Of a stretch of DNA of 64,000 bases, positions 31,545 through 51,180 are shown one piece after another; the first letter of the stretch is position 1, and every line of letters starts with the position of its first letter. Under the pieces are notes generated by a model. The model was not told the DNA's origin and did no database searches. It was given only the letters and a program-made list of their open reading frames with translations. Source of the stretch: Longimicrobiales bacterium (GTDB taxonomy: Bacteria > Gemmatimonadota > Gemmatimonadetes > Longimicrobiales > Gaopeijiaceae); contig OX638356.1 of the NCBI GenBank assembly GCA_951813395.1, positions 3,918,501 to 3,982,500 on the forward strand. Direction: 5' to 3'. The position numbers were made by a program, and so were the translations under genes.

Positions 31545-32324
31545 ATGAAACTGCCCTTCGATCTTGACCGGCCGGTCACCTTCTTCGACCTCGAAACCAC
31601 GGGCCTGAGCCTGTCCCGCGACCGAATCGTCGAGCTGGCGATCATCAGGGTGTCTCCGCAGGGCGATGTCTTCGAGAAGGTCCGGCGCTACAACCCCGAG
31701 ATGCCGATTCCTCCCGAGGCCGCTGACATCCACGGGATCACCGACGACCTCGTGGCCGACGAACACCCCTTCCGCGCGACGGCAAAATCCCTGGCCAGCC
31801 TGTTGGAGCCGTGCGATCTCGCGGGCTTCAACATCCGGCGCTTCGACCTGCCGATCCTGCTCGCCGAGTTTCGTCGGGCCGGGGTGGCCTTCGAGGTGAA
31901 GGACCGGCGCCTGATCGACATGAAGATGATCTTCCACCGCGAGGAGCCGCGCGACCTGTCGGCGGCGGCGCGCTTCTACCTGGGGCGGGACCACGCGGAC
32001 GCCCACACCGCGCTGGGCGACATCCGCACGACGGCGGCCGTGCTGACCGCACAACTGCAGAGGTACGGCCACCTCCCGCGCAGCATGGACGGCCTGCACG
32101 CCTACTGCGACGAAATGGGCCCCTACCTCTCCGAGTTCGACCGCTGGTTCTCCGACACACCGGACGGCCTGACGTTCAACCGGGGCAAGCACAAGGGCAC
32201 GCTTCTGGGCGAAGTCGCCCAGTCGGCTCCCGATTACCTGGAATGGATGCTGGGCGCCGACGACATGCCGGCCGAAGTGCTGGAGGCGGTCGGACAGGCG
32301 CTCGCCATAACCGGCCGGGCATGA
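31545..32324 (+). CDS. DnaQ-like DEDDh 3'-5' exonuclease
   Basis: 259 residues. The DEDDh exonuclease motifs are clear: FFDLETTGL (Asp and Glu), LAGFNIRRFDLPIL (Asp) and DHADAHTALGD (His and Asp). The C-terminal FNRGKHKGTLLGEVA plus the SAPDYLEWML segment is a short domain also seen behind exonuclease X-type proteins. The protein may act in proofreading, mismatch repair or RNA trimming; it lacks a polymerase-epsilon clamp motif that I can recognise. The start ATG has no Shine-Dalgarno but a -10-like TAGAAT 8 nt upstream. Confidence 0.87.
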   Translation: MKLPFDLDRPVTFFDLETTGLSLSRDRIVELAIIRVSPQGDVFEKVRRYNPEMPIPPEAADIHGITDDLVADEHPFRATAKSLASLLEPCDLAGFNIRRFDLPILLAEFRRAGVAFEVKDRRLIDMKMIFHREEPRDLSAAARFYLGRDHADAHTALGDIRTTAAVLTAQLQRYGHLPRSMDGLHAYCDEMGPYLSEFDRWFSDTPDGLTFNRGKHKGTLLGEVAQSAPDYLEWMLGADDMPAEVLEAVGQALAITGRA

Positions 32325-32380
32325 CAAGCGGTCCGCGCCACCACCAATCGAACCCCCCTCCGCCAGGAGCAGGCAAAGCA

Positions 32381-35287
32381 ATGATCGCGCCGAAACCAGC
32401 CACCATCCGCCATCCGCTGGCCCTGCTCGGCCTCGTCGGACTGGCCCTGACACATCCCCTGGCCGCCCAGCAGGCGATCACCGAAGCCGAGCTTGGCGCG
32501 TTCCATCCGCGGCACGTCGGGCCGGCGATGACCGGCGGGCGCATTCACGATGTCGAGGCGCTTCCGCACGACCCCTCCACCATCTACGTCGCGTCGGCAT
32601 CGGGCGGGCTGTGGAAGAGCGTCAACCGGGGGATCACCTGGACCAACCTGTGGGAGCACATGCCGGTCAGCACGTTCGGCGACGTGGCCATCGCGCGCTC
32701 CAACCCGGACGTGGTCTACGCCGGCACGGGCGAGCAGCAGAACCGGCAGAGCACGTCGTGGGGCAACGGCGTGTACCGCTCCGACGACGCGGGCGCCACC
32801 TGGCGTCACCTGGGGCTCGAAGAGACGCACCACACGGGCCGCGTGCGGGTCCACCCCACCGATCCCGACGTCGTGTACGTGGCCGCGCTGGGGAACCTGT
32901 GGCGCTCCACCCCCGACCGCGGCGTCTATCGCTCGCGCGACGGCGGACGCACCTGGGACAGGGTGCTGTACGTCGACGAGCACACCGGCGCGATCGACCT
33001 CGCGATGGACCCGTCCGACCCCGACGTGCTCTACGCGGCGATGTATCAGCGGCAGCGCCGCGCATGGGGCTTCAACGGCGGCGGGCCCGGCAGCGGCATG
33101 TACAAGACCACCGACGGCGGCGACACCTGGCGGGAGCTCACCAACGGGCTGCCCGAGGGCGACAAGGGCCGCATCGGGATCGCGGTCGCGCCCACAAACC
33201 CGCGAATACTTAACATTCTTGTTCAGCATTCCACCGAGTCGGGGGGCTACCGCAGCGAGGACGGCGGCGAGAGCTGGGAGAAGGTGAGCGACCGGAACAT
33301 CCGGCCGATGTACTACTCCCACGTCTTCATCGACCCGACCGACGAGGACCGCGTATACACGCTGGCCACGTCTTCGCATCGCAGCGAGGACGGCGGACGC
33401 ACCTTCGTCGAGATCGCGGAGCGCCCGACCTACGACGTGGGCGTGCACGCCGACCACCACACGATGTGGATCAATCCGGACAACCCCGACCACTTCTACC
33501 TCGCGGGCGACGCCGGACTGCACGAGACCTACGACCGCGGCGTGACCTTCCGGCGCATCAACAACCTTCCCATCGGGCAGTTCTACGGGATTACCGTGGA
33601 CAACCGGGATCCGTACTGGATCTACGGCGGCATGCAGGACAACCACTCCTGGATGGGCCCCTCCGCGACTCGCTCGTGGGAGGGGATCGTGGACGACGAG
33701 TGGCGGCAGAGCGGCTTCGGCGACGGCATGTACCAGCAGGCCGACCCGGATGGACGCACGATCTACATCAACGCCCAGAACGGTTCGTGGACTCGTTTTG
33801 ACAACAGGACGGGCGACATGATGAGCCTGCGCCTGACCGCGCCCGAGGGCGAGGAGCCGTACCGCTGGGACTGGGCAAGCCCGAGTCTGATATCCCGGCA
33901 CGACCCCAACACGGTCTACCTGGGCGGCAACCGCCTGTTCATATCGCGCGACCGGGGCGACAGCTTCACCCGCACCGAGGACCTCACGCGGCAACGGGAC
34001 CGCGACGAGCTGGAGATCATGGGCGTGCGCGGCGCCGACATCACGCTCTCCCGCAACGACGGCACCTCGTCGTACGGCGAGATCATCACGATCTCCGAGT
34101 CGCCCCTCGACCCGGCGGTGCTCTGGGTCGGCACCGACGACGGCAACGTGCAGGTCTCCGTGGACGGCGCCCGCACCTGGAACGAGGTCGCCCGCAATGC
34201 CCCCGGCCTCCCGGACGGCACATACGTCAGCCGCGTCCTCGCCTCGGGTCAGGCGCCCGGTACCGCCTACGCCACCTTCGACGCGCACCGGGACGGCGAC
34301 TTTCGCCCGTTCGTCTACCGCACCGAGGACTACGGCGCCACCTGGACCCCGCTGCACGGCGGCCTGCCCTCCGGGTCCGTCAACGTGATCGTCGAGCACC
34401 CCGACAACCCGGAGGTGCTCTTCATCGGCACCGAGCATCACGTCTTCGCCAGCACGGACCGCGGCGCGTCCTGGGCGAGGTTCCCGACGCTCCCCACCAC
34501 GGCGTACGACGACATGGTGGTCCACCCGCGCGAGAAGGATCTCGTTCTCGGCACGCACGGCCGCTCGATCATCATCGTCGACGACGTGGGGCCGCTCGCC
34601 GGCTACGGCGCCACCGCCGCCGACGCGGTCGCGCTGTACGCCGCGGGTCCCGGCAGGATCATGAACTACTGGAAGGACACGTCCTACCGGGCCCAGTCCG
34701 TCTTCATGGGCGACAACCCCGTGGACGGCACGGTGGTCACCTACCGTCTCGGACCGGGTTCGGGCCCCGCCCGTCTTACCGTGCGCAACGCGGCCGGCGA
34801 GGTGGTCCGCAGCATGACCGTCCCCTCCGAGCCCGGCCTGCACCGGGTCGACTGGGATCTGCGTCACGGGCTGCCGGGCGAAGGAGACGACGCCGAGTGG
34901 TCCGCCCACGATCCCTCGGTCGTGCCGCGCCCGCTGGGCCAGCGCGGTCCCTTCGTTTCGCCCGGCGTCTACACGGTGGAGCTCTCGGCGCGAGGCGAGA
35001 TGCACTCCGGCAACGTGTCGGTCGGCGGCGACCCCGATCTGCCCCTCACGGTCGAGGACTACCGGGAACGCGAAGCCTTCCTGCTGGAGATCCTGGAGCT
35101 GGGCCGCCAGCTCGAAGGCGCCGGGGACGCCGCCTCCGACCACCGCCGCGATCTCATGCAACTGTACGGCGCCATCAACGGCGGCGGGGTCCGGCAGGGC
35201 ACGCTCCATCCCCCGACGGCCACGCAGCGCGAGCAGCTGGAGCGGATCCGGCGCGCTTTGCGCCGGCAGGGGCTGGTGGCGCAGTGA
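32381..35287 (+). CDS. Secreted sortilin/VPS10-like BNR-repeat protein
   Basis: 968 residues with a signal peptide ending near LTHPLAAQQ. The body is a ten-bladed-type propeller of BNR/Asp-box repeats, for example GVYRSDDAGATW, GVYRSRDGGRTWD, GMYKTTDGGDTW, HVFASTDRGASW. Such proteins are annotated as glycosyl hydrolases or sortilin-like and are abundant in Gemmatimonadota and Acidobacteriota. The C-terminal ~250 residues form separate beta domains (for instance VTYRLGPGSGPARLTVRN). ATG 32381 follows AGGAG. Codons at about 33207-33232 are unusually AT-rich. Enzyme activity cannot be assigned; it may bind or cleave glycans or peptides outside the cell. Confidence 0.82.
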   Translation: MIAPKPATIRHPLALLGLVGLALTHPLAAQQAITEAELGAFHPRHVGPAMTGGRIHDVEALPHDPSTIYVASASGGLWKSVNRGITWTNLWEHMPVSTFGDVAIARSNPDVVYAGTGEQQNRQSTSWGNGVYRSDDAGATWRHLGLEETHHTGRVRVHPTDPDVVYVAALGNLWRSTPDRGVYRSRDGGRTWDRVLYVDEHTGAIDLAMDPSDPDVLYAAMYQRQRRAWGFNGGGPGSGMYKTTDGGDTWRELTNGLPEGDKGRIGIAVAPTNPRILNILVQHSTESGGYRSEDGGESWEKVSDRNIRPMYYSHVFIDPTDEDRVYTLATSSHRSEDGGRTFVEIAERPTYDVGVHADHHTMWINPDNPDHFYLAGDAGLHETYDRGVTFRRINNLPIGQFYGITVDNRDPYWIYGGMQDNHSWMGPSATRSWEGIVDDEWRQSGFGDGMYQQADPDGRTIYINAQNGSWTRFDNRTGDMMSLRLTAPEGEEPYRWDWASPSLISRHDPNTVYLGGNRLFISRDRGDSFTRTEDLTRQRDRDELEIMGVRGADITLSRNDGTSSYGEIITISESPLDPAVLWVGTDDGNVQVSVDGARTWNEVARNAPGLPDGTYVSRVLASGQAPGTAYATFDAHRDGDFRPFVYRTEDYGATWTPLHGGLPSGSVNVIVEHPDNPEVLFIGTEHHVFASTDRGASWARFPTLPTTAYDDMVVHPREKDLVLGTHGRSIIIVDDVGPLAGYGATAADAVALYAAGPGRIMNYWKDTSYRAQSVFMGDNPVDGTVVTYRLGPGSGPARLTVRNAAGEVVRSMTVPSEPGLHRVDWDLRHGLPGEGDDAEWSAHDPSVVPRPLGQRGPFVSPGVYTVELSARGEMHSGNVSVGGDPDLPLTVEDYREREAFLLEILELGRQLEGAGDAASDHRRDLMQLYGAINGGGVRQGTLHPPTATQREQLERIRRALRRQGLVAQ

Positions 35288-35343: not shown

Positions 35344-36708
35344 TCAGCGGAACCACCACCATCCGCCGCCACCGCCGCTGAAGCGGTTGTTGACGACGTT
35401 GTTGTAGATGGAGCCGAACTGGAACGAGAAGCCGAGCTGGAGGGAGTAATTGAAGTCCTGAGCGCGCTGCTGGAGGTTCAGGAGCGCTTCGGCGTCGGTC
35501 GCGCCCTCGGCCGACAGGTAGATCTGGTCGTTGACCCAGGAGATGTTGCCCTCGGCGTTGACGCTGACTCCCCGCGCGATGCGGAAATCGATTTCACCCC
35601 GCAGCCTCACGTTGTAGAGGCCGATGTCGTGGAGGAAGTGGGACCCGGTCATGCTGATCGAAGCGTCGCCCCACTGCTGCCTCTGTGAGAGTTCGAACTC
35701 GAGCGACTGCTCCCAGCGGGTCTCGGATGTCTGCAGGAAGCGCGTCTGCTCGATGTAGCTGCGGTAGGCGGGTCCTATCTTGTAGAACAGCGTGAGCGCA
35801 TGCCGGGTCGCCTCTTCGTACGGGAAGAAGCTGTACTCCAGAGCCGGGGTGATCTCGGCCCGGAGACGCTGGTTGAAGCGGACGATCCTGCGAACCTCTC
35901 CCTGTACGCCGACCGACCAGTGCTCGGCCAATGAGTAGGCGATCAGTTCGCTGAAGCCCCAGTCGGTCCTGGAATCGATGAAGGTGGGCGCGTCGGTGAG
36001 GTCGATCTCGCGTCGATTGTAGTTCACGTTGCCGCGGAAGTTCATTTTCCACGTCGGCGTCACCCGCGAGGCGCTGAAGTTGCCGTCGACCCGCTGAGTG
36101 CGCCGGGTCTGCTCGCCATTGAGTTCGGTGCGCCCCCCCAGCCGGAAGACCCAGAAGTCCCAGGGATCGTCGACCTCCTCCTGCGCGACGACGCGTTCAC
36201 CCGGATCGGGTCCCTGTCCGTTCAGCAGGACGGTGCTGACTTCCTGAAAGGCGGCGACGTCGTCGAAAAACCCGTTGACCGTGGCGAAGTGCAGCAGCCC
36301 GACGCCGATCGTGCGGGCGACTTCGTCCAGCGTTTCCCGGTCCGTGTTGGTGGGCGGCGCCTGATACGACAGCTGCCGCTCGTACCCGAAGTCTCCCGAG
36401 CCTATGTAGTCCAGCCGGTACTCACGCCCTCCCGCACCCGTGGCCTGGCTCGTCATGATGACGTGGACGTCCGAGTCGTCGGGAAGGCGCACCCAGTTCA
36501 CCCACGGCAGTTCGGTGCGGAAGTAGTTCAGGTTGCAGTTTCGGCTCGCGCAGTCGAGGAAGACGCTGATCCAGTTGCCGCCCTCCTCGGCCTCCTCCTG
36601 CCCGGCAGCGGGTGTGGCCACCAGGGCCAGCGCCAGGACGGGGGCAATACACGCGCCCAGAATGGCAGGACCGCGTACATGACGCGGCGCTCGCGTACGG
36701 TTCAGCAC
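35344..36708 (-). CDS. Outer-membrane beta-barrel protein of unknown function
   Basis: About 454 residues: a signal peptide (ILGACIAPVLALALVATPAAG), a short domain with two cysteines (FLDCASRNC), then regular amphipathic strands with aromatic ends such as FGFSELIAYSLAEHWS-type segments and a C-terminal region ending in a Gly/Trp-rich tail (GGGGGWWWFR). No TonB box or plug is seen. The start is uncertain: GTG 36708 avoids overlap with the plug-like lipoprotein upstream, while GTG 36768 would overlap it by 32 nt. The two genes are adjacent on the same strand and probably co-transcribed. Transport or anchoring roles are both possible. Confidence 0.65.
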   Translation of the reverse strand: MLNRTRAPRHVRGPAILGACIAPVLALALVATPAAGQEEAEEGGNWISVFLDCASRNCNLNYFRTELPWVNWVRLPDDSDVHVIMTSQATGAGGREYRLDYIGSGDFGYERQLSYQAPPTNTDRETLDEVARTIGVGLLHFATVNGFFDDVAAFQEVSTVLLNGQGPDPGERVVAQEEVDDPWDFWVFRLGGRTELNGEQTRRTQRVDGNFSASRVTPTWKMNFRGNVNYNRREIDLTDAPTFIDSRTDWGFSELIAYSLAEHWSVGVQGEVRRIVRFNQRLRAEITPALEYSFFPYEEATRHALTLFYKIGPAYRSYIEQTRFLQTSETRWEQSLEFELSQRQQWGDASISMTGSHFLHDIGLYNVRLRGEIDFRIARGVSVNAEGNISWVNDQIYLSAEGATDAEALLNLQQRAQDFNYSLQLGFSFQFGSIYNNVVNNRFSGGGGGWWWFR

Positions 36709-36736: not shown

Positions 36737-37132
36737 TCAGCGGCGCCACGTGGTGACGACGATCGCACCGGCGATATGGTTGGTGCCGAAACGCGTCGTC
36801 GCGTCCGACGCGCTCATGAAGCGAATCTCCTCGACCTCGTGCGGCGCCAGCCTTGTCAATTCATCGATTTCCCCGCGAAACTGGCCGTCCACGTAGACCC
36901 GCGGAGTATGCCGTTGCTGGTTCCGAAGCGATGCCATGTTGCGTGGCAGAAGCCACCGGGGGCGCAACGCTCTAACCGCCTCGAAGGTGGTGTTGTGCGG
37001 GACCGCCATCAGTTCCTCTGCAGTGATCAGGTCTCTGGAACGGCCGGCACCGCTTGATTCGCCCGACGACACGCATCCCGTCGAGAGGAGGACCGCCACC
37101 AAAAGCAGGGGTGAATGGGCTCGCGTCAGCAT
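36737..37132 (-). CDS. Plug-domain-like lipoprotein (orphan TonB plug C-half), copy A
   Basis: 131 residues with a lipobox LLSTGC, so an exported lipoprotein. The mature part resembles only the second half of a TonB-dependent receptor plug: RVYVDGQFRGEID, then LAPHEVEEIRF, DATTRFGT and AGAIVVTT. These correspond to the IYVDG, DIERMEVIKG, ATTLYGTEASSG and VIQIFTKRG stretches of the SusC genes nearby. No barrel follows. ATG 37132 follows GGAGG. A second such gene lies beside the other SusC/SusD pair. It may cap or assist a receptor; this is inference. Confidence 0.7.
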   Translation of the reverse strand: MLTRAHSPLLLVAVLLSTGCVSSGESSGAGRSRDLITAEELMAVPHNTTFEAVRALRPRWLLPRNMASLRNQQRHTPRVYVDGQFRGEIDELTRLAPHEVEEIRFMSASDATTRFGTNHIAGAIVVTTWRR

Positions 37133-37289: not shown

Positions 37290-37724
37290 TTGAGAAAGCC
37301 CAAAGCCGTACTGGCCGCGGTCGTCGCGGTCGCGTTCCTGGTGTCGAGTTGCATGTCCGTACAGCGGATGCCTCTCCCCGGACCCGAGGTGCGGGACGGC
37401 CTCGACATTCACGGTGTGATTGTGGGCGACTGCTCCCCGGACGGGACCGGGTGCGAGACGCTCGAGTATTCCGAGGTGCACGATGTGCGGTGGACGGAAA
37501 CGAGCCTGGTGGTCACCGGGGTCGTGCACGCGCCCGGAGAAGATGGTCACGGGCGGATCACCACGACTGCCTTCCCCCTGGGGGACATAAGCGAAGTGCT
37601 GGTCGGGAATACGGACGGAACCCGCAGCTCGATCATTGTCGCGGGCATTCTCATGGGGGCTTCCATCCTCATCTCCTTCCTGGTGACCGGCAAGTCGAAG
37701 GACGGCGTGCCGCTCGGCAGGTAA
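37290..37724 (+). CDS. Small lipoprotein with C-terminal hydrophobic segment
   Basis: 144 residues. The lipobox is FLVSSC after a hydrophobic signal sequence, so it is lipid-anchored. The middle is beta-rich, with FPLGDISEVLVGN before a C-terminal hydrophobic stretch (SSIIVAGILMGASILISFL). The layout matches the lipoprotein at 51591-52115 (IPAQGLADIEIRS then an AGILGVVVGAI stretch), so the two may be distant paralogues beside the two SusC/SusD loci. The start is a TTG at 37290 behind AAAGGG. It converges on the SusD gene with a hairpin between. Function unknown. Confidence 0.65.
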   Translation: MRKPKAVLAAVVAVAFLVSSCMSVQRMPLPGPEVRDGLDIHGVIVGDCSPDGTGCETLEYSEVHDVRWTETSLVVTGVVHAPGEDGHGRITTTAFPLGDISEVLVGNTDGTRSSIIVAGILMGASILISFLVTGKSKDGVPLGR

Positions 37725-37840: not shown

Positions 37841-39172
37841 CTACGTGCACACCGATGAGTTCTGGATCTCCGGGTTCAAGGTGCATTCGATCTCGGGAAC
37901 CGGCATGCACGACACGCGTGGCTCCGCCCCCGGACCGATGAGCGTCCCACCCTGCAGGAAGGGATGCTGCCATCGGTCAAGATCGAACAGGCGCCGACCT
38001 TCGATCCACAGCGTCAGGTAGCGTTCCCGGTCCAGGATGGACCAGGCGTCGTCCTGAGCGTTGGGGAATTCCAGCGCTCCGACCGAAGTCGGCTGCTCGA
38101 TCGGCTCCGCCCCGTAGAACGCACGCACTTCGTTGACCTTGGCCGTGAAGGTCGCGAGGTCTCCACCAAGCAATGCGGCCTCGGCCTCGATGAGCCTCAT
38201 CTCGGTTCCGGTGACGATCGGAACGTCGCTGCCGGACTCCGGGTATTTGTTCTGCCTGTAATGCGCGGTCAGCCCGTCAGCGCCCTGGTGTGCACCGCTG
38301 CCCTGGCCCGTGCAGACTCCCGTCGGCGTCACGCCCTGTGACGGGTCGTTCGGGTCGTTCCAGGCACCGCAGATCGTGTAAGGCGCACGCGGATCACCGT
38401 CAAAGGCCCGTTGGGCCGGCGTCGCCCAGACGCCCACCTCCGCGCGGCCCCAGGATTCGTTCCACACCTGGTTGCTGTTGGCAGTCAGGTGGTAGACGGC
38501 GCTATGCATGAAGTTCGTGGGCACCATGGACGCCGACTGCACGGCCGCCGACCAGTTGCCCAGCCCCACGTTCGCCTGGGCAATGCCGCCATGGGCCGCT
38601 GTCACGAAGTCGCTCGCGCCGGCCGCCGTGCCGATCGACACTGCCTGATTCAGCGCGACGATCGCGCTGTCGAAGGCAGCCTCACGCGGTTGCAGCGGGC
38701 CCTTGTCATAGACGAGGTCACAGAAATTCTCGCCGAGCATCCTGTGGGCCAGCCCCATCAGCAGGAAAACCCGCGCGGAACCATCGAAACTGTTGGCCTC
38801 CGCTTCAAGCACATTCTGGAGCCGCTCCCACGCACCTCCGGCGGCCCAGGCCGCCTCGTGGGCCTGTTCCCAGTGCCCTTCCGAATTCTCGTTGTCGAAG
38901 ACGCCCCGCCGGTACTGTCCGGTGGAAAAGTAGCTTCCCGTGCCGGCAAGGTCGTCCGTAAGGCGGGCGATATCGAAGGCGTAGAAGTCGCCGATGTCGT
39001 TGAACTCGGCCGAAACCCCGGAAACCAGGATCGGCATGAGTTCCCGCGTGGTGAGGTCCTCGTCCAGGATCCTGCCCGGGTTCAGGACCTCGAGTTGGCA
39101 CCCCGCAGACGCCATCCCGCATAGCAGGACGGCAACGCCCAGGGGCCCCGTGCCTCTCATTGGTCTGATCAT
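37841..39172 (-). CDS. SusD/RagB-like outer-membrane nutrient-binding lipoprotein, locus A
   Basis: 443 residues with a lipobox (MASAGC) and the SusD helical repeat fold. Diagnostic stretches are NPGRILDEDLT near the N-terminus, LLMGLAHRMLGENFCDLV, GTEMRLIEAEAALLGGD and LWIEGRRLFDLDRW. SusD proteins lie on the cell surface over a SusC channel and bind oligosaccharides, peptides or other nutrients. ATG 39172 follows a GAGGGGGG stretch; homology begins here, so longer in-frame extensions are rejected. It is 14 nt downstream of SusC, with the usual C-D order. The ligand is not predictable. Confidence 0.9.
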   Translation of the reverse strand: MIRPMRGTGPLGVAVLLCGMASAGCQLEVLNPGRILDEDLTTRELMPILVSGVSAEFNDIGDFYAFDIARLTDDLAGTGSYFSTGQYRRGVFDNENSEGHWEQAHEAAWAAGGAWERLQNVLEAEANSFDGSARVFLLMGLAHRMLGENFCDLVYDKGPLQPREAAFDSAIVALNQAVSIGTAAGASDFVTAAHGGIAQANVGLGNWSAAVQSASMVPTNFMHSAVYHLTANSNQVWNESWGRAEVGVWATPAQRAFDGDPRAPYTICGAWNDPNDPSQGVTPTGVCTGQGSGAHQGADGLTAHYRQNKYPESGSDVPIVTGTEMRLIEAEAALLGGDLATFTAKVNEVRAFYGAEPIEQPTSVGALEFPNAQDDAWSILDRERYLTLWIEGRRLFDLDRWQHPFLQGGTLIGPGAEPRVSCMPVPEIECTLNPEIQNSSVCT

Positions 39173-39186
39173 CTTATGTCCCCCCC

Positions 39187-42114
39187 TCAGAAGTTCACGG
39201 AGAAGTTCAGGATGAGGATCCTCGGTGGCGCCATGTTGTAGTACTCGTTCGGAGTGGAGTCCCCGAACCCGTTGTCGTTCGCCTCGGGGTCCAGACCGCG
39301 GTAGTTGGTCCAGGTCATCAGGTTCTTGCCGGCAATCCCGACCTGGGCGCTCCGCGCACCCGGCACCAATCCGTCGGGCAGGCGGTACGTGACCGAAGCC
39401 GAGCGGATCTTGAAAAAGTCCGCCAGATCGGTCCACATGCCCTGGTCGGAGTACGGGCCGATGCACCGGGCGATGTCGCGTGCCGGCAATCCCATCTGCG
39501 CGACCCGCGAGGAACCCGACCCACTGAGCGAATAGTACATGTCCTGAATGGCTGGACACCCGTCACCGGGCCACACGCGCCTGCGCACATTCTGATACGC
39601 GATTCCGATGGGCCGGACCATGCCGTACTGGCCCTCGCCAACCAGGTCGATCGTCAACGCACGCCAGAGGGTCAGCCGAGTGTTGAGACCTACCGTCTCG
39701 GTGGGAAACAGGTTGCCAATCATCCCCTTCTCGTAGTCGGGAAGCTCACCGATCGCATCGGCATTCGTGAGCGTATCGTCCCAGCGGATCCATAGCGGAT
39801 AGCCCAGCTGACGCGAGGTTCCCAGATCCTCCAGGGGACCGAGATCGGTGATTTCGCTGTCGTTCGTTGTGAAGTTGACACCGACGTCCCACTCGATGTT
39901 CTCGGTCCGGACGGGCACGAAGTTCACCATGGTCTCGGTGCCCCAGTTCTTGACCTCGCCGAGGTTGCGCCAGGTGCATTCCTCCGTCCCGCCGGACGGT
40001 GCCTCCTGCACGCAGATCAGCGCGTCCCGCGTTGTCTGGTCGAACGCCGTGAAATCGACGATCAGACGTCCGCCCAGGAACGACGCGTCCGCTCCGAACT
40101 CCAGCTCCGTAGACACTTCGGGCCCCAGATCCGCGTTGCCGAGATTGGCGATAATGACGGCGGGCACCTGCTCGTCGGCGGATGTCGCCTCGTAGGTGCG
40201 CTTGGCGTCGAATGCACCGGGCGCCTTGCCGGACTGGCCCCATGCGGCCCGCAACTTGAAGGTTTCGGTCCAGTCGAAGGGGAAGAAGTCCTCGTCAGAG
40301 ATGGTGTAGGCAGTTTGTAGCTTGGGATAGGCGGCGAGACCGAAGCCCTCGCCGAACGTGCTGAAGCCGTCCCACCGGATCCCGCCGGTCACGAAGAGCT
40401 TGTCGTTGAGCCCCAGGACTTCCTGCACGAAGAAACCGCCGCTTCTCTCAATGATTCGGTTCTCGAAAACCCGCGGGTTGTTGCCATCGCCCAGAACCTG
40501 CTCACCGGGTCCGGCGAACAGTTCGTCGAAGCCGTTGAGCGTGTAGTTGAACTCCTCGTATACCTGGCCTCCCCACGAGAAGTCCGAACTGACGTTGTTC
40601 AGCGGACTGTACGAGAAGGTGCCGCTGTAGTCGAAGGTCAGATTGCGGTCGAATTGCTGATCGATCTCGCGGTCCCCGGTCGCTTCCTCATAGAAGCCCC
40701 AGCCCTTGAAGTCCACGAAGTCCGACGAAGTGTAGTCGATTCCCACGTTCATCCGGTGGGAGAACAGACTGTTCGGCGACCATCCAACCGAGAGGCTGGT
40801 CACATACTGATCGAGATACGTGAAGATCTGGTTTTCCAGGACCAGGGAGTCGTCGTTGCCCGGGGTGTAGCCCCGGTCCCCGCGCAGCACGTTCAGGTAC
40901 AGACCCGACGCGTTGTTCCCGTTGGGAATCCAGGTGATGTTCCGGCGCGCATAGCTGCTGTTCAACTGCAGGTTGAGCCCCTCGGCCGGCTGGAATGTGA
41001 TGTTGGCGCGGACGTTGTAGTTGTCCGCCCCCTGCGGCTCGACCACGCCTTGCCGGTCGCCGTACTGCCCCGACACGAAATAGGTCGCGTTCTGTCCGCC
41101 GCCCCGCACGCTCAGGTTGTACACCTGGTGGTGGGCGTTTCGGAACCAGCTTCCGCTTTCCGGACAGCCCGGTTCATCAACACCGATCTCACCGGTCTGG
41201 TGGTTGAGGATGCCGGGATCACGGCAGGTGTTGAGGAACAGCCCCGAGGGATTCACGTCGGCGGCGGGCCCCTGATGCGGCATCATGCTGATACCCTGCT
41301 CGAGGGTGGCGGACCATGCCGGAGCCCCCGCGACGCCGCGCTTGGTGAAGATCTGGATCACGCCACTCGAGGCCTCGGTGCCGTACAGCGTCGTGGCGGC
41401 GGGCCCCTTGATCACCTCCATGCGCTCGATATCCGCCGGGTTGATCATGTCGAAGGCAGAAGGAGTCTGAGCGCCTTCGTCGTCCGCGCCGATCGGGTTG
41501 TTCTCGAGACGGATCCCATCGACGTAGATGAGCGGGTTGTTGCCCTGCTGCAGGGAGTTGTTGCCGCGCAGCCGGATCTGGCTGGCCGCGCCGACCTGCC
41601 CGCTGTGGTCGTTCACCTGGATCCCGGTGGTGCGTCCCTGCAACACGTCGCCGAAGTCGGTCACAGCCGTGTACTGAATGTCTTCGGCGACGATCGAGCT
41701 GATGCTGTTGCCGACCTCGCGCCTGCGCGCCTGCCCCGCCGTGCCGGTCACGACAACGCCCTCGAGAGCGATCGCGTCCTGGCGGATGTTGAAATCCGCC
41801 GTCGCTGCCCCTCCGGAGGGAACCGTCACCGTAAGTTCCGTGCTGCCGTAACCGATGAGATCGACTCGCACGGTCTGCTCGCCGGCAGGGACGTTCACGA
41901 GCAGGTAGCGACCCACGTTGTTGGTCAGCATCCCCAGCGTCGTCCCGGCGATGGAGATCTGGGCGCCAGCCAGCGGCGCCTGGCTGACCGCGTCTCTGAC
42001 GCTCCCCGTCACCGTTCCGATCTGCGCGGCCAATTGGGCGCTGCCGACGGTGAGGAGGAACGCGGCCCCGAGCGCCGCCATGCGCACGGTGCCTTTCGGT
42101 GGAAGAAGCCGCAT
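39187..42114 (-). CDS. SusC/RagA-like TonB-dependent receptor, locus A
   Basis: 975 residues: signal peptide, a carboxypeptidase-regulatory-like beta sandwich (about 33-115, GTVTGSVRDAVSQAPLAGAQ), a plug domain (about 120-245, with REVGNSISSIVAEDIQ, NPLIYVDGIRLENNP and TLYGTEASSGVIQIF), and a beta barrel ending in Phe (LNFSVNF). It imports large ligands through the outer membrane with energy from TonB. ATG 42114 follows AAGGAGGG at good spacing. It lies 197 nt downstream of a hypothetical gene and 14 nt upstream of SusD. No anti-sigma or ECF sigma gene is beside it. Confidence 0.93.
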   Translation of the reverse strand: MRLLPPKGTVRMAALGAAFLLTVGSAQLAAQIGTVTGSVRDAVSQAPLAGAQISIAGTTLGMLTNNVGRYLLVNVPAGEQTVRVDLIGYGSTELTVTVPSGGAATADFNIRQDAIALEGVVVTGTAGQARRREVGNSISSIVAEDIQYTAVTDFGDVLQGRTTGIQVNDHSGQVGAASQIRLRGNNSLQQGNNPLIYVDGIRLENNPIGADDEGAQTPSAFDMINPADIERMEVIKGPAATTLYGTEASSGVIQIFTKRGVAGAPAWSATLEQGISMMPHQGPAADVNPSGLFLNTCRDPGILNHQTGEIGVDEPGCPESGSWFRNAHHQVYNLSVRGGGQNATYFVSGQYGDRQGVVEPQGADNYNVRANITFQPAEGLNLQLNSSYARRNITWIPNGNNASGLYLNVLRGDRGYTPGNDDSLVLENQIFTYLDQYVTSLSVGWSPNSLFSHRMNVGIDYTSSDFVDFKGWGFYEEATGDREIDQQFDRNLTFDYSGTFSYSPLNNVSSDFSWGGQVYEEFNYTLNGFDELFAGPGEQVLGDGNNPRVFENRIIERSGGFFVQEVLGLNDKLFVTGGIRWDGFSTFGEGFGLAAYPKLQTAYTISDEDFFPFDWTETFKLRAAWGQSGKAPGAFDAKRTYEATSADEQVPAVIIANLGNADLGPEVSTELEFGADASFLGGRLIVDFTAFDQTTRDALICVQEAPSGGTEECTWRNLGEVKNWGTETMVNFVPVRTENIEWDVGVNFTTNDSEITDLGPLEDLGTSRQLGYPLWIRWDDTLTNADAIGELPDYEKGMIGNLFPTETVGLNTRLTLWRALTIDLVGEGQYGMVRPIGIAYQNVRRRVWPGDGCPAIQDMYYSLSGSGSSRVAQMGLPARDIARCIGPYSDQGMWTDLADFFKIRSASVTYRLPDGLVPGARSAQVGIAGKNLMTWTNYRGLDPEANDNGFGDSTPNEYYNMAPPRILILNFSVNF

Positions 42115-46007: not shown

Positions 46008-46391
46008 TTAGCGAAGAGTAACGACAATGGCCCCGTTGAAGAATCCGGTTCCGAAGCGGGTGGTGGCGTCCGACGGGCTCAAGAAGGTGACCCGTGCGAC
46101 CGATCCAATCGGGACCTGAGCAAGTCGATCCCGGTCGCTGCGCTGACCGTTGATGACCACTGTGGCGGATCCGTTGCGCGCCCGGAGCCATTGCGGCCGT
46201 AGGAGCATGAGGGCATCCATCGTGTGAGTAGCCGGAATCCCCTCTAACTGGACCGGGGTGATGTCACCCGTGCTTCTCGGAAGCGCCGTTCCCTCGCCCA
46301 ACGACGAGCAGGCGTGGGAAGTCACGGCGACTACTGCCACAAGCGCGAGGCTGGCGGCGTTCGCTCTTGTGGTTTTCCGTAGTCTCGTCAA
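46008..46391 (-). CDS. Plug-domain-like lipoprotein (orphan TonB plug C-half), copy B
   Basis: 127 residues. A TTG at 46391 follows AAGGAGAG and gives a basic N-terminus, hydrophobic core (ASLALVAVVAVTSHAC) and a lipobox-like cysteine. The mature protein has LRPQWLRARNGSATVVINGQ, then a helix-like spacer, VARVTFLSPSDATTRFGT and NGAIVVTLR, matching copy A and the second half of SusC plug domains. Copy A shares DATTRFGT exactly. It is downstream of SusC/SusD locus B, separated by a strong hairpin. No barrel is present. Confidence 0.68.
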   Translation of the reverse strand: MTRLRKTTRANAASLALVAVVAVTSHACSSLGEGTALPRSTGDITPVQLEGIPATHTMDALMLLRPQWLRARNGSATVVINGQRSDRDRLAQVPIGSVARVTFLSPSDATTRFGTGFFNGAIVVTLR

Positions 46392-46632: not shown

Positions 46633-47931
46633 TCAGCCCGTTGGCCCGTTGATATTCGGGTTCGTGTCTACCTCGCCGCGCGCGATCGGGAAGCACAGGT
46701 CCTGCTGGACGAGGTGCGAGCCCTCGTTCTGGCTCCCGGACGGCTGCTCGAGTGGATCAAGGGCGCCCGGCGTGTTGTCGCGGTTCCAGCGGAAGAAATC
46801 GCCGAGACGGCGTCCTTCCAGCCACAGCACCACGCCGCGCTCGAACTTGAGCGCCGTCCACGCCTCGGCCGTGTTCGTCGCCATCGCGGGCTCCACCCCT
46901 GCAGCCATGCGCAGGGCGTTGATCTTGCCCATGGCGCCCTGCCAGTCACCCGCCACCAGCATGGCCTCGGCCTCGATCAGCCGCATCTCCGTACCCTTGG
47001 AGAGCGGAATGTCAGAGCCCGGATCCGGGTACTTCTGCTGCGGCCACCACGGAACCTGGCCGCAGCACTGCACCGCGGCGTCGCCGGTCTCGTTTGTTAT
47101 CCGGAACGGGATCCGTGGGTCGCCGTCCGCGTTGTTGTCGCTCATACCGTAGTCCTCGTACTTCGTATACCTCTGGGTATGAGCCTTGTACGGCTCGGCC
47201 TGGCTCGCGAACTGGATCCGGTTGCGGGTCGGATCTCCGTAGCCTTCGTGATAGGGCATGTTGAAGACGAAGTCGTCCGGCACGCCGGCCGCGTCCGCCA
47301 TTGCACCGGACCAGTCGCCCATGAACGCCTTGACGGAAGCCCGCGCCGCAACCGCGGCCATCGCCACGTCCCCCGACCCAAGCGAGGACGCCTGGTCGAG
47401 CCGCGCGATTGCGCGGTCGTAGTAGACGCTGCGCGCACCGGCCCCCTCGCCGTCGATCACCGACACGCAGAAGTTCTCGCCAAGCAGGCGGTACGCGTAC
47501 CCGGTCCACAGGTACGCTTCGGCCAGGTCGGCCTGGCTCTCGGCCCCCGTCTCCATGATCTTGGCGACCCCGTCGTCGCCCCACCAGCGGGCGCGCTGGG
47601 AGAGGTTCCAGTGGGTGCCGATCGTCTCGTAGTCGAGTTCGCCGTTCTGCCACTCGACGGTAATCCCGAAGCTGCCCGTGGAACCGGACGGATGGACCTC
47701 GCGCGTGACCGCCGCTCCGGTGTATCCGACCCAGTTCTGGGCCTCCGCGGCTGCACGTCCGATTCCCTTGACGATCGCCCGCTGGGCCTCGGTCTCAAAC
47801 AGGAAGACCTCCTGAACGCGTCCCGGGTTGACGACCGTGGTATCACAGGCCGTCAGCAACCCGAGCAACGCGGCGGAGAGGAGGGCGCCCCGCCGCGTGA
47901 CGTACGATGTAATCATCGAAATGTTTTTCAT
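46633..47931 (-). CDS. SusD/RagB-like surface lipoprotein, locus B
   Basis: 432 residues with a lipobox (LLTAC) and SusD-like repeats. It has NPGRVQEVFLFE at the start, AYLWTGYAYRLLGENFCVSV, GTEMRLIEAEAMLVAGDW and LWLEGRRLGDFFRW. It is a diverged paralogue of the SusD gene in locus A. ATG 47931 follows a GGGGGGAAGAG stretch, 15 nt after the SusC stop, so the two are co-translated. It should bind ligand for the SusC channel; the ligand is unknown. A perfect hairpin lies downstream before the plug-like lipoprotein. Confidence 0.9.
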   Translation of the reverse strand: MKNISMITSYVTRRGALLSAALLGLLTACDTTVVNPGRVQEVFLFETEAQRAIVKGIGRAAAEAQNWVGYTGAAVTREVHPSGSTGSFGITVEWQNGELDYETIGTHWNLSQRARWWGDDGVAKIMETGAESQADLAEAYLWTGYAYRLLGENFCVSVIDGEGAGARSVYYDRAIARLDQASSLGSGDVAMAAVAARASVKAFMGDWSGAMADAAGVPDDFVFNMPYHEGYGDPTRNRIQFASQAEPYKAHTQRYTKYEDYGMSDNNADGDPRIPFRITNETGDAAVQCCGQVPWWPQQKYPDPGSDIPLSKGTEMRLIEAEAMLVAGDWQGAMGKINALRMAAGVEPAMATNTAEAWTALKFERGVVLWLEGRRLGDFFRWNRDNTPGALDPLEQPSGSQNEGSHLVQQDLCFPIARGEVDTNPNINGPTG

Positions 47932-47946: not shown

Positions 47947-50900
47947 TTAGAAGACGAGCTGCATTGAGAACGTGTAGAACGCCGGCGGCGGAACGTGCTC
48001 GGTCATGCTGCGCACCCGCGTATTGTAGCCGACGTTGCCGCCAACCTCGGGATCCAGCGTCCGCATGAGCGGATCCACCCACCGGAAGAAGTTCCGGCCC
48101 GAGAACGTGACGGTCGCGCGCGACGCACCAACCATGTTCGCCCACGCGTCCGGGAGAGGCGCCTGTGCGCTCACCTCGCGGATCTTGAAGAAGTCGGCAG
48201 GCTGCACGGCGAAGTCGGACTGATAGAACTTCAGGTCACAACGCGCCCGCTCCTCGGCGGTCAGAGCCGCGTACCCCTGGGTCTCCCAGGTGTTGTACGC
48301 CTCGAAGCATCCCGCCCACCTCACCGAACGGCGGGTCGCGGCGGCCTGCGGCCCGTTGTACATGAACGCTCCGCCCTGATACTCCCCGCGCGCGGTCAGG
48401 AGAATGCCCGCCGGAAGCCCGAAGGTCATGCCGAAGCCCGCGATGGTGGTTGCCTGGTTCGGTCCGTGGACGCACTGCTCATCGGTCCGGTCAAGGATGA
48501 TCGGGTCGGCGCGTTCGTCAGGATTGGCAACGCAGTCGGACCGGATGACCGGCGCCGGATAGCCTTCCGACACCCAGCCGAAGCCGCCGATCGAGAACTC
48601 GGGCGATCCGCCGAGCGAAACGATTTCGGAGTCGGTCAGGGAAAGGGTCCCGTTGACGTCCCAGGTCCACGTGTCGTTCCGGACAATGCTGTAGTTCAAG
48701 CCGAGCTCCAACCCGTTGTTGACGAGTTCGCCCACGTTGGAGAGCTGGGAACTCGTAAAGCCCAGCGACGGGACCTGGAGCACGCTGAAGAGCGCGTCCT
48801 GGGTCGTCTGGGCGAAGTAGGTGAAGTCGAGGGCGAGCCTGTCGTCCACGAACGAACCCTCGAAGCCGAGTTCCAGCTCGGAGGTGGTCTCGGGACCGAT
48901 CGTCGCGTTGCCCACGTTGCTGGGCAGGAAGGCGGGCACCCCGCCCCAGCCGGCCGCGGAGAAGGTCCGGACCGCGTCGAAGGCGCCGGGAGCGCGTCCC
49001 GCCTGACCCCAGGCGGCGCGCAGCTTCATGCTGCCCCAACCGTCCTCCCAGAAGTCCTCGTCGGAGATGACGTAGGAACCCGAAACCTTCGGGTAGGCCT
49101 GCAGCCCGAAGTCGGCACCGAATGCGGAGTTGCCGTCAACCCGCAGGCCGAACGTGACAAAGTACTTGTTGGAGATGTCGAAGACGTTCTGCACGAACAG
49201 GCCGGCGTTCACAATCCGGGTACGGTCCTCGAAGCCCAGTGTGTTGCCCGCGTTGTCCACGTCGGGATCGCCGGGCCCGGGGAAGTTGTCCCCGTAGGCG
49301 GTCGTGCGCTCACTGCGGGTGGTCACGCTCTGCCCGCCGAAGGAAAGCGCCGAACGGATTCCCATGGGAAGGCTGAAGTCCAGGGATCCGACGTAGTCCG
49401 CCGTGAGCGTATTGAACTCGTAGCGTGACGTGGCGAGGATCCCCGTGGGGGCCCGGATGAAACCGAAGGGCCGCAGGTTGCGGTTGTCCTGCTGGGCCAG
49501 GTCGTACCCGACGCTGAAGCGGTTGGAGAAGTTCGCCAGCGGCGAGTACGTGGCCGTCAGCCCCGTGATCAGGTGATCGATCTGAGTAGTGATCTCCTGG
49601 TTGAGGAAGGGGTTGATGGCGTTGAAGGACTCGTCGTTGAGGTAGTTGCGGTCGCGCCGGAAGGTGTTGAGCGTCATCCCGTGCGCGTTGTTTCCGCCCG
49701 CCGTGTGCGCCAGCTGGTCGTTCGTGTACGACGTATTCCACTGGAGCTGCAGTGATTCCATGGGATTGAAGGTGAAGTTGCCCCTGAGGATGACCTTCTT
49801 CTCGTTGTCGTTGGGCAGAACACCGTCGTCGTCCTCGTAGGAGGCCGACACGAAGTACCTCACGGTCTCGGCACCGCCGCCCACGTTGAGCGCGTACTTC
49901 TGCTGGTACGCGCCCATGTCGCTGAAGAGGCCGCTGTCGCACGGCTGGTCCTGAACCACGATCGCGTCGCCGCACATCGGCTTGTGGCCGCGGAGCCAGG
50001 GATTGATGAAGAGGAAATCGGAACGCCCGCCGGACAGCGAGGTCGGATTCTCCGACGGCGGCCTCAGCGCCGGATCCGGGCCGAAGGTCAGGTTGCGCGA
50101 TACCCCCTGCTCCAGCTGGCCCGTCCAGGTGGCGTCGCCGACGCTTCCGCGCTTGGTGAAGATCTGGATCACCCCGGCGGAAGCCTCGGTGCCGTAGAGT
50201 GTGGTGGCGGCCGCGCCCTTGATCACCTCCACCCGCTCGATGTCCTGCGGGTTAACGCTGTTGAGCGGGCTGGAGACGTCGTTGTTGCTGCGCCCGGAAT
50301 AGCCAACAGGCGGCACGTTCTTGGCAAAGCCCTCGCTGCGGACCCGTACCCCGTCGATGTAGATGAGGGGCTGGTTGGACTGGGTCATCGACACGTTGCC
50401 GCGCAGGCGGATCATCGCCCCGCCGCCGGAGCTCGCCGAACTCTGCGTGATCGACATGCCGGGAATGCGGGCCTGCAGCAGCGCGTCGACGTTGGTCGGC
50501 GGTCCCACTACCTCCTGCTCCACATCGAGCTGCGAGATCGAGTTGCCGACCTCGCGGCGGCGCGCAGCCCCGGCCGTCCCGGTCACGACGATCTCGTCGA
50601 GGCCCAGGGCCTGGGCCGCGATCGCGAAGTCGTGCTGCGTGGTCGCACCCGAGGTGACCGTGATCGTCGCCTCGGCCGACGCGTACCCGATGCGCTCGGC
50701 GCGGATCGTGTAGTCTCCCGCCGGCACGTTGAGGATGACGAAGCGGCCGTTGTCACGGGAGAGGGTTCCCAGTCCGGTGCCATCCAGGTACACCTGGACG
50801 GATCCCACCGGCTGGCCACTCGTCCCGTCGGTGACCGTGCCCGTAACCGCCCCGTCCTGCGCCTGGGCGGCGCCCGGGATGGCGAACGCGGCCGCGAGGA

Positions 50901-50967
50901 GGATGACCCCCGCCACGCCCACTCCGCCCACACGGGAACGGAGTGCATCGAACAATCGGATTGTCAT
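47947..50967 (-). CDS. SusC/RagA-like TonB-dependent receptor, locus B
   Basis: 1006 residues: signal peptide (cleaved near GAAQAQDG), a carboxypeptidase-regulatory-like domain (AVTGTVTDGTSGQPVGSV), a plug (about 125-270, RRREVGNSISQLDVEQEV, QPLIYIDGVRV, TLYGTEASAGVIQIF) and a beta barrel ending in Phe (FSMQLVF). ATG 50967 follows AAGGAG. The first ~150 residues are close to those of locus A while the barrel diverges, which suggests different ligands. It is 213 nt downstream of a PKD lipoprotein and may share its transcript. Confidence 0.93.
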   Translation of the reverse strand: MTIRLFDALRSRVGGVGVAGVILLAAAFAIPGAAQAQDGAVTGTVTDGTSGQPVGSVQVYLDGTGLGTLSRDNGRFVILNVPAGDYTIRAERIGYASAEATITVTSGATTQHDFAIAAQALGLDEIVVTGTAGAARRREVGNSISQLDVEQEVVGPPTNVDALLQARIPGMSITQSSASSGGGAMIRLRGNVSMTQSNQPLIYIDGVRVRSEGFAKNVPPVGYSGRSNNDVSSPLNSVNPQDIERVEVIKGAAATTLYGTEASAGVIQIFTKRGSVGDATWTGQLEQGVSRNLTFGPDPALRPPSENPTSLSGGRSDFLFINPWLRGHKPMCGDAIVVQDQPCDSGLFSDMGAYQQKYALNVGGGAETVRYFVSASYEDDDGVLPNDNEKKVILRGNFTFNPMESLQLQWNTSYTNDQLAHTAGGNNAHGMTLNTFRRDRNYLNDESFNAINPFLNQEITTQIDHLITGLTATYSPLANFSNRFSVGYDLAQQDNRNLRPFGFIRAPTGILATSRYEFNTLTADYVGSLDFSLPMGIRSALSFGGQSVTTRSERTTAYGDNFPGPGDPDVDNAGNTLGFEDRTRIVNAGLFVQNVFDISNKYFVTFGLRVDGNSAFGADFGLQAYPKVSGSYVISDEDFWEDGWGSMKLRAAWGQAGRAPGAFDAVRTFSAAGWGGVPAFLPSNVGNATIGPETTSELELGFEGSFVDDRLALDFTYFAQTTQDALFSVLQVPSLGFTSSQLSNVGELVNNGLELGLNYSIVRNDTWTWDVNGTLSLTDSEIVSLGGSPEFSIGGFGWVSEGYPAPVIRSDCVANPDERADPIILDRTDEQCVHGPNQATTIAGFGMTFGLPAGILLTARGEYQGGAFMYNGPQAAATRRSVRWAGCFEAYNTWETQGYAALTAEERARCDLKFYQSDFAVQPADFFKIREVSAQAPLPDAWANMVGASRATVTFSGRNFFRWVDPLMRTLDPEVGGNVGYNTRVRSMTEHVPPPAFYTFSMQLVF

Positions 50968-51180
50968 GCTTCTGCTCCTTGCCAAACCTGGTTTTGCAGC
51001 CGGCCCGGCACCGGGACGCTCCCGGCCCGCCCGTCCCGCCAACAACTACATGGCAGAACGATCCGGCTGCCGATCAACATAGTATCGCCGATTCACGCCA
51101 CGCCACCGGCGTGACGCGCAACGGCAAGGATACCGCCGTCCGAATACATCCACACTTGGCGATGCGGATGCCACGCCCGA

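Follow-up and report, generated by a model that had tools for sequence, protein, structure and literature searches.

Introduction

Accessory surface lipoproteins of Sus-like systems are exposed on the cell surface, bear an acidic export signal and have folds other than that of a plug. In Bacteroidetes, acidic residues following the lipid-bearing cysteine act as a surface export signal, a motif which was not found in periplasmic lipoproteins (PMC5080379). SusC plugs can leave their barrel entirely, and in the levan transporter BT1762-63 those barrels which are closed and empty lack the plug altogether, the step by which it is reset being unclear (PMC7782687). Two arginines conserved in the plug of FhuA, R93 and R133, would lock it to the barrel through predicted salt bridges, and the transporter is inactivated when their partner glutamates in the barrel are changed (PMC11658791). 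Plugs can also be reached from the periplasm, as by the phage T5 lipoprotein Llp, which binds the FhuA plug and alters its state (PMC9586334).

The gene considered here, copy A, lies in a 64,000-nucleotide stretch of DNA, analysed as a whole and called the window, from a genome consisting of a single contig of 4.09 Mb. Like the Sus-like accessory proteins, it encodes a lipoprotein within a SusCD locus. It resembles Llp and Cor, the lipoproteins by which phages T5 and T1 exclude superinfection, in being a small lipoprotein, and the role proposed below would likewise be exerted from the periplasmic side, from which Llp acts on a TonB-dependent transporter. Llp and Cor differ in being phage-encoded and inhibitory; homology between them and the family of copy A was neither detected nor expected, and no relative of copy A was found among phage or plasmid records. 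A free-standing, lipid-anchored transporter plug here constitutes a protein family under strong selection, which bears on the open question of the fate of the SusC plug in the course of transport and of the way in which the pore is closed again.

Results

Copy A (36737..37132, minus strand, as are all features of the window unless stated otherwise) encodes 131 amino acids and begins with an ATG, 6 nt upstream of which stands a GGAGG motif; neither promoter nor terminator patterns were found around the gene. The first-pass annotation of the window had taken it for a lipoprotein carrying four plug motifs (VYVDG, EVEEIRF, DATTRFGT and AGAIVVTT) and no barrel. All four motifs were confirmed in the reading frame, and the lipoprotein assignment is borne out by a signal peptide (residues 1-20; 37073..37132) ending in the lipobox LSTGC, with Cys20 as the lipid-bearing residue, as delineated by the family alignment and a lipobox survey. 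A short G/S-rich linker follows (residues 21-33; 37034..37072), devoid of a TonB box and of acidic residues at positions +2 to +5, and leads into the plug domain (residues 34-131; 36740..37033). The polypeptide stops at residue 131, right after the plug, and lacks the barrel as well as the N-terminal extension (carboxypeptidase-like domain) and the TonB box. Copy A is a genuine lipoprotein gene under selection, with dN/dS values of 0.11-0.18 against its orthologues; its nearest relative, 91% identical, is on a contig named Gemmatimonadota.

Only the second half of a plug had been recognised in the first-pass annotation. The N-terminal part of the domain (ITAEEL...ALRPRWL..R), however, corresponds in alignment to the first half of a SusC plug, and AlphaFold modelled the entire fold, with a pLDDT of about 95 over residues 31-128. 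The best structural match of this model in the PDB is the plug of SusC BT1763 (VIA-align, Z 8.7, 2.2 Å over 90 residues), and the PDB sequence matches are of the SusC/RagA type without exception. A profile-profile comparison by hhalign between the lone-plug family and the SusC plugs of the same loci covered 100 columns with 98.7% probability. Taken together, the full-length profile alignment, the confident model and the BT1763 match indicate a complete, compact domain, and copy A, as modelled, holds the whole plug fold of SusC type. Copy A itself scores 13.1 bits against PF07715 (TonB plug), for which the gathering score is 23.9. Of 96 family members aligned, which came from the window and 79 loci elsewhere, 52 matched PF07715 at E<=0.1 and 43 matched the SusC model TIGR04056. 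The paralogue C1:359707 (match C1:359725) exceeds the PF07715 cut-off, and C1:485980 (match C1:485998) does so only together with its frame neighbours.

The likeness to the SusC/RagA plug (PF07715, TIGR04056) thus extends in fold over the whole domain, and the RG arginine, VYVDG, A-T-x-x-[FY]-G and G-[AV]-I motifs are common to both. Unlike SusC/RagA proteins, the lone plugs have no barrel, no carboxypeptidase-like N-terminal domain and no TonB box; the pattern used for the latter was found in 0/95 family linkers and in 31/41 SusC proteins. Two loops are deleted relative to SusC plugs, one a 14-residue hairpin and the other of about 20 residues. The RG arginine is retained in 91/100 lone plugs, whereas the position of the KGP lysine is occupied by K or R in none of the 100 and in all 41 SusC plugs. 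We take these RG and K/RGP positions to be those of FhuA R93 and R133. A new arginine, two positions before the invariant glycine, is present in 94/100 lone plugs and in 0/41 SusC plugs. In the 96-member alignment A111 and G116 show no variation, and L56, R57, W60, L61, R64, T112, R114, T117, G122 and I124 hardly any. The residues R57, W60, R114 and H119, which together with the lipid anchor are gains of the lone plugs, are strongly family-specific and suggest an interaction surface different from that of an ordinary plug in its barrel.

The lipobox cysteine is conserved in 95/96 aligned members, the remaining one having a gap there. In 45/45 SusD proteins with a recognisable lipobox from the same loci, at least one of the positions +2 to +5 is acidic. 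In contrast, the lone-plug lipoproteins have no acidic residue at +2 to +4, and only 1/95 has one at +5. If the Bacteroidetes rule is valid in Gemmatimonadota, which is an assumption, and bearing in mind that the SusD pattern could be partly structural, these missing residues place the plug lipoproteins on the periplasmic face; they are probably located in the outer membrane, on its periplasmic side. The surface location which the first-pass annotation had also entertained is disfavoured by the same residues. As a separate observation, the occurrence of acidic +2 to +5 residues in every SusD examined (L022-L126 and the window) hints at a surface export signal in Gemmatimonadota resembling that of Bacteroidetes.

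At locus A, SusC A (39187..42114; CarbopepD_reg_2, Plug and TonB barrel by Pfam profile match) is followed by SusD A (37841..39172, start inferred; PF07980 above cut-off). Copy A had been described as sitting beside this pair. It does lie downstream of it, but a conserved gene for a small lipoprotein, read from the opposite strand (37290..37724, plus; a listed ORF of uncertain start), diverging from copy A and converging on SusD A, intervenes here and in most relatives too, and a further gene follows copy A downstream. This gene (35344..36708) encodes a DUF481-like outer-membrane beta-barrel, with sub-threshold Pfam matches to DUF481 and OMP_b-brl_3, and an orthologue is present in 12/12 loci of the copy-A clade, window included. 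Its conserved GTG start lies 28 nt past the plug stop (29 in L068) in ten loci. This fixed spacing, together with the presence in all 12 loci, ties copy A more closely to the barrel gene than to SusCD. The barrel protein, which always accompanies copy A and is 70-92% identical across loci, has an N-terminal cysteine-containing domain; AlphaFold gave no confident model of it (pLDDT 32). A large gene on the plus strand (31811-35287), which we take from the appearance of its sequence to encode a BNR/sortilin-like secreted protein, is conserved beside the copy-A unit, and the minus-strand ORF 32234-35209 is its likely antisense.

The sister gene announced for locus B was confirmed. Copy B (46008..46391), a paralogous plug lipoprotein with a TTG start after AAGGGAGAAGGAG, comes right after SusD B on the same strand, about 245 bp downstream. 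SusD B (46633..47931) is above the PF07980 cut-off, and SusC B (47947..51045, start uncertain) was identified by Pfam profile match. The source genome holds six full-length copies, namely copy A and its paralogues copy B, C1:359707, C1:408826, C1:485980 and C1:1737011, besides a divergent one at C1:409385.

The recurrence at two loci had been judged unlikely to be due to chance. The linkage does exceed chance: 6/20 full-length copies in six complete genomes are no more than 3 kb away from a SusD where 0.27 would be expected (P<=5e-5), for random placement, with SusD detected by Pfam and chromosome lengths partly rounded. A seventh copy, C1:1737011, is preceded by a SusC and a SusD-like gene which Pfam missed. 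On the other hand, 14/20 copies, most of this unbiased sample, are more than 3 kb from any Pfam-detected SusD, and the two window copies are 2/6 in their genome, the others being only partly SusC-linked. Among homologues, with clade membership read off the FastTree order, the copy-A clade has its plug gene behind SusC-SusD, with all three on one strand, in 11/12 loci (copy A and 10/11 relatives). A second clade has the plug gene 63-205 bp upstream of SusC, giving two linked gene orders, SusC-SusD-plug and plug-SusC-SusD; in L087, L104, L105 and L120, lone-plug copies lie between SusCD pairs. About half of the 96 members, in contrast, have no SusC or SusD within flanks of up to 10 kb, and the large clade II has none at all within its flanks, so that the association with SusC genes assumed in the first-pass annotation holds for one part of the family and fails for another. 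In 24/25 clade II loci the plug gene adjoins a convergent gene which, by the look of its product, we presume to encode an M20-type peptidase; the source-genome paralogue C1:359707 has this neighbour as well. SusCD linkage is therefore real but partial.

Among 150 genomes of the phylum, matches were found in 130, some of them full SusC proteins, and nearly all fall within the class of the source organism; most complete genomes counted carry one to six full-length copies. The lone plugs form a large, ancient family of Gemmatimonadota, widespread in one class. The family is apparently undescribed, as a search of the literature on barrel-less plugs, Gemmatimonadetes plug lipoproteins and plug lock residues retrieved no publication on it. 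A hit on a contig titled Ignavibacteriales (L133) is the sole match among 198 genomes of that phylum. Two others, L126 (titled Deltaproteobacteria) and L128 (titled Bacteroidetes), lie near contig ends in single-copy genomes with a GC content of 64-66% and are probably mis-binned. L091, L104 and L105 (RHO1_bin_70, RHO2_bin_50), whose Gammaproteobacteria titles may be wrong, have a GC content of 67-68% and carry lone-plug genes as well as SusCD pairs.

A tree was built from 100 lone plugs, 41 SusC plugs and four other plug proteins of the source genome. One branch with a support of 0.988 parts all lone plugs from the rest, on 97 columns and with long-branch effects possible; such a clean separation from SusC plugs argues against repeated truncation. 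dN/dS within the copy-A clade is <=0.27 for every computable pair, indicating purifying selection.

Discussion

Copy A is a detached, shortened SusC-type plug domain on a lipid anchor, which would be held in the outer membrane facing the periplasm, with a flexible linker of about 15 residues keeping it directly beneath the membrane. The tethered plug would bind the periplasmic face of a beta-barrel as an accessory, assembly or gating factor. In clades linked to SusCD its partners would be SusC-type transporters, and copy A might pair with the adjacent DUF481-like barrel. The plug-free barrels of BT1762-63 (PMC7782687) and the action of Llp on FhuA (PMC9586334) make binding from the periplasmic side plausible, and the tethered domain might contact either barrels or plugs. 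We infer both the binding and the partner, and a periplasm-facing accessory which binds a barrel from below is the reading we tentatively favour, while stopping short of calling it probable. More speculatively, the lone plugs could be phylum-specific, trans-acting devices which cap, chaperone or reset SusC-type pores while TonB extracts their own plug, a proposal which we consider unlikely. With its SusCD-linked and its unlinked clades, the family provides a ready test set.

It is also conceivable, if rather doubtful, that the plug fold has been redeployed in the periplasm as a general module for binding or scaffolding, with partners varying by clade (peptidase-, barrel- or SusCD-linked), the SusCD neighbourhood then reflecting descent from a SusC locus instead of a shared function. 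The half of the family without SusC/SusD in its flanks, the peptidase gene of clade II and the plug core rebuilt around new near-invariant residues all speak for such a module, and the unlinked clade and the rebuilt residues in particular bring it close behind the favoured reading. Descent from a single locus, however, does not readily account for a SusCD linkage which turns up repeatedly, across several clades and with two gene orders.

The first-pass annotation had suggested a competitor entering the SusC barrel. A lone plug might do so in trans, either to compete with the cis plug or to close the pore once that plug has been drawn out, in line with the ability of SusC plugs to exit and with the retained RG arginine. 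This is improbable, since the KGP-lysine position has lost its basic residue in every lone plug, the FhuA precedent has such plug residues in predicted salt bridges with barrel partners whose alteration inactivates the transporter, and the hairpin and loop are deleted. The TonB box being absent as well, TonB could not exert its usual pull on copy A, which would not simply be a second cork. We see equally little prospect for a lipoprotein binding a glycan or ligand at the cell surface as part of a Sus-like complex; the gene position in SusCD loci fits it, but the acidic residues present in all SusD examined are missing. Nor is the plug fold known to serve as a glycan-binding module. That the lone plugs are functionless, decaying SusC gene fragments, as plug homology without a barrel could suggest, is scarcely credible and was rejected on selection and conservation, given the low dN/dS, the tree separation and the conserved lipobox and neighbour genes.

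Other arrangements of the plug domain were noticed besides the lipid-anchored family. Two short plug proteins, L021 and L024 (G000 C1:383198 and C1:1617606), group with SusC plugs in the tree. In L045 a lone plug is fused to an apparent long TPR-like repeat protein (599 aa frame). Finally, L025 and L027 (G000 C1:1648343 and C1:2987767) represent a second barrel-less architecture in the source genome, adjoining SusCD genes, with frames of 447-520 aa comprising a carboxypeptidase-like domain, a plug and a hydrophobic C-terminus.
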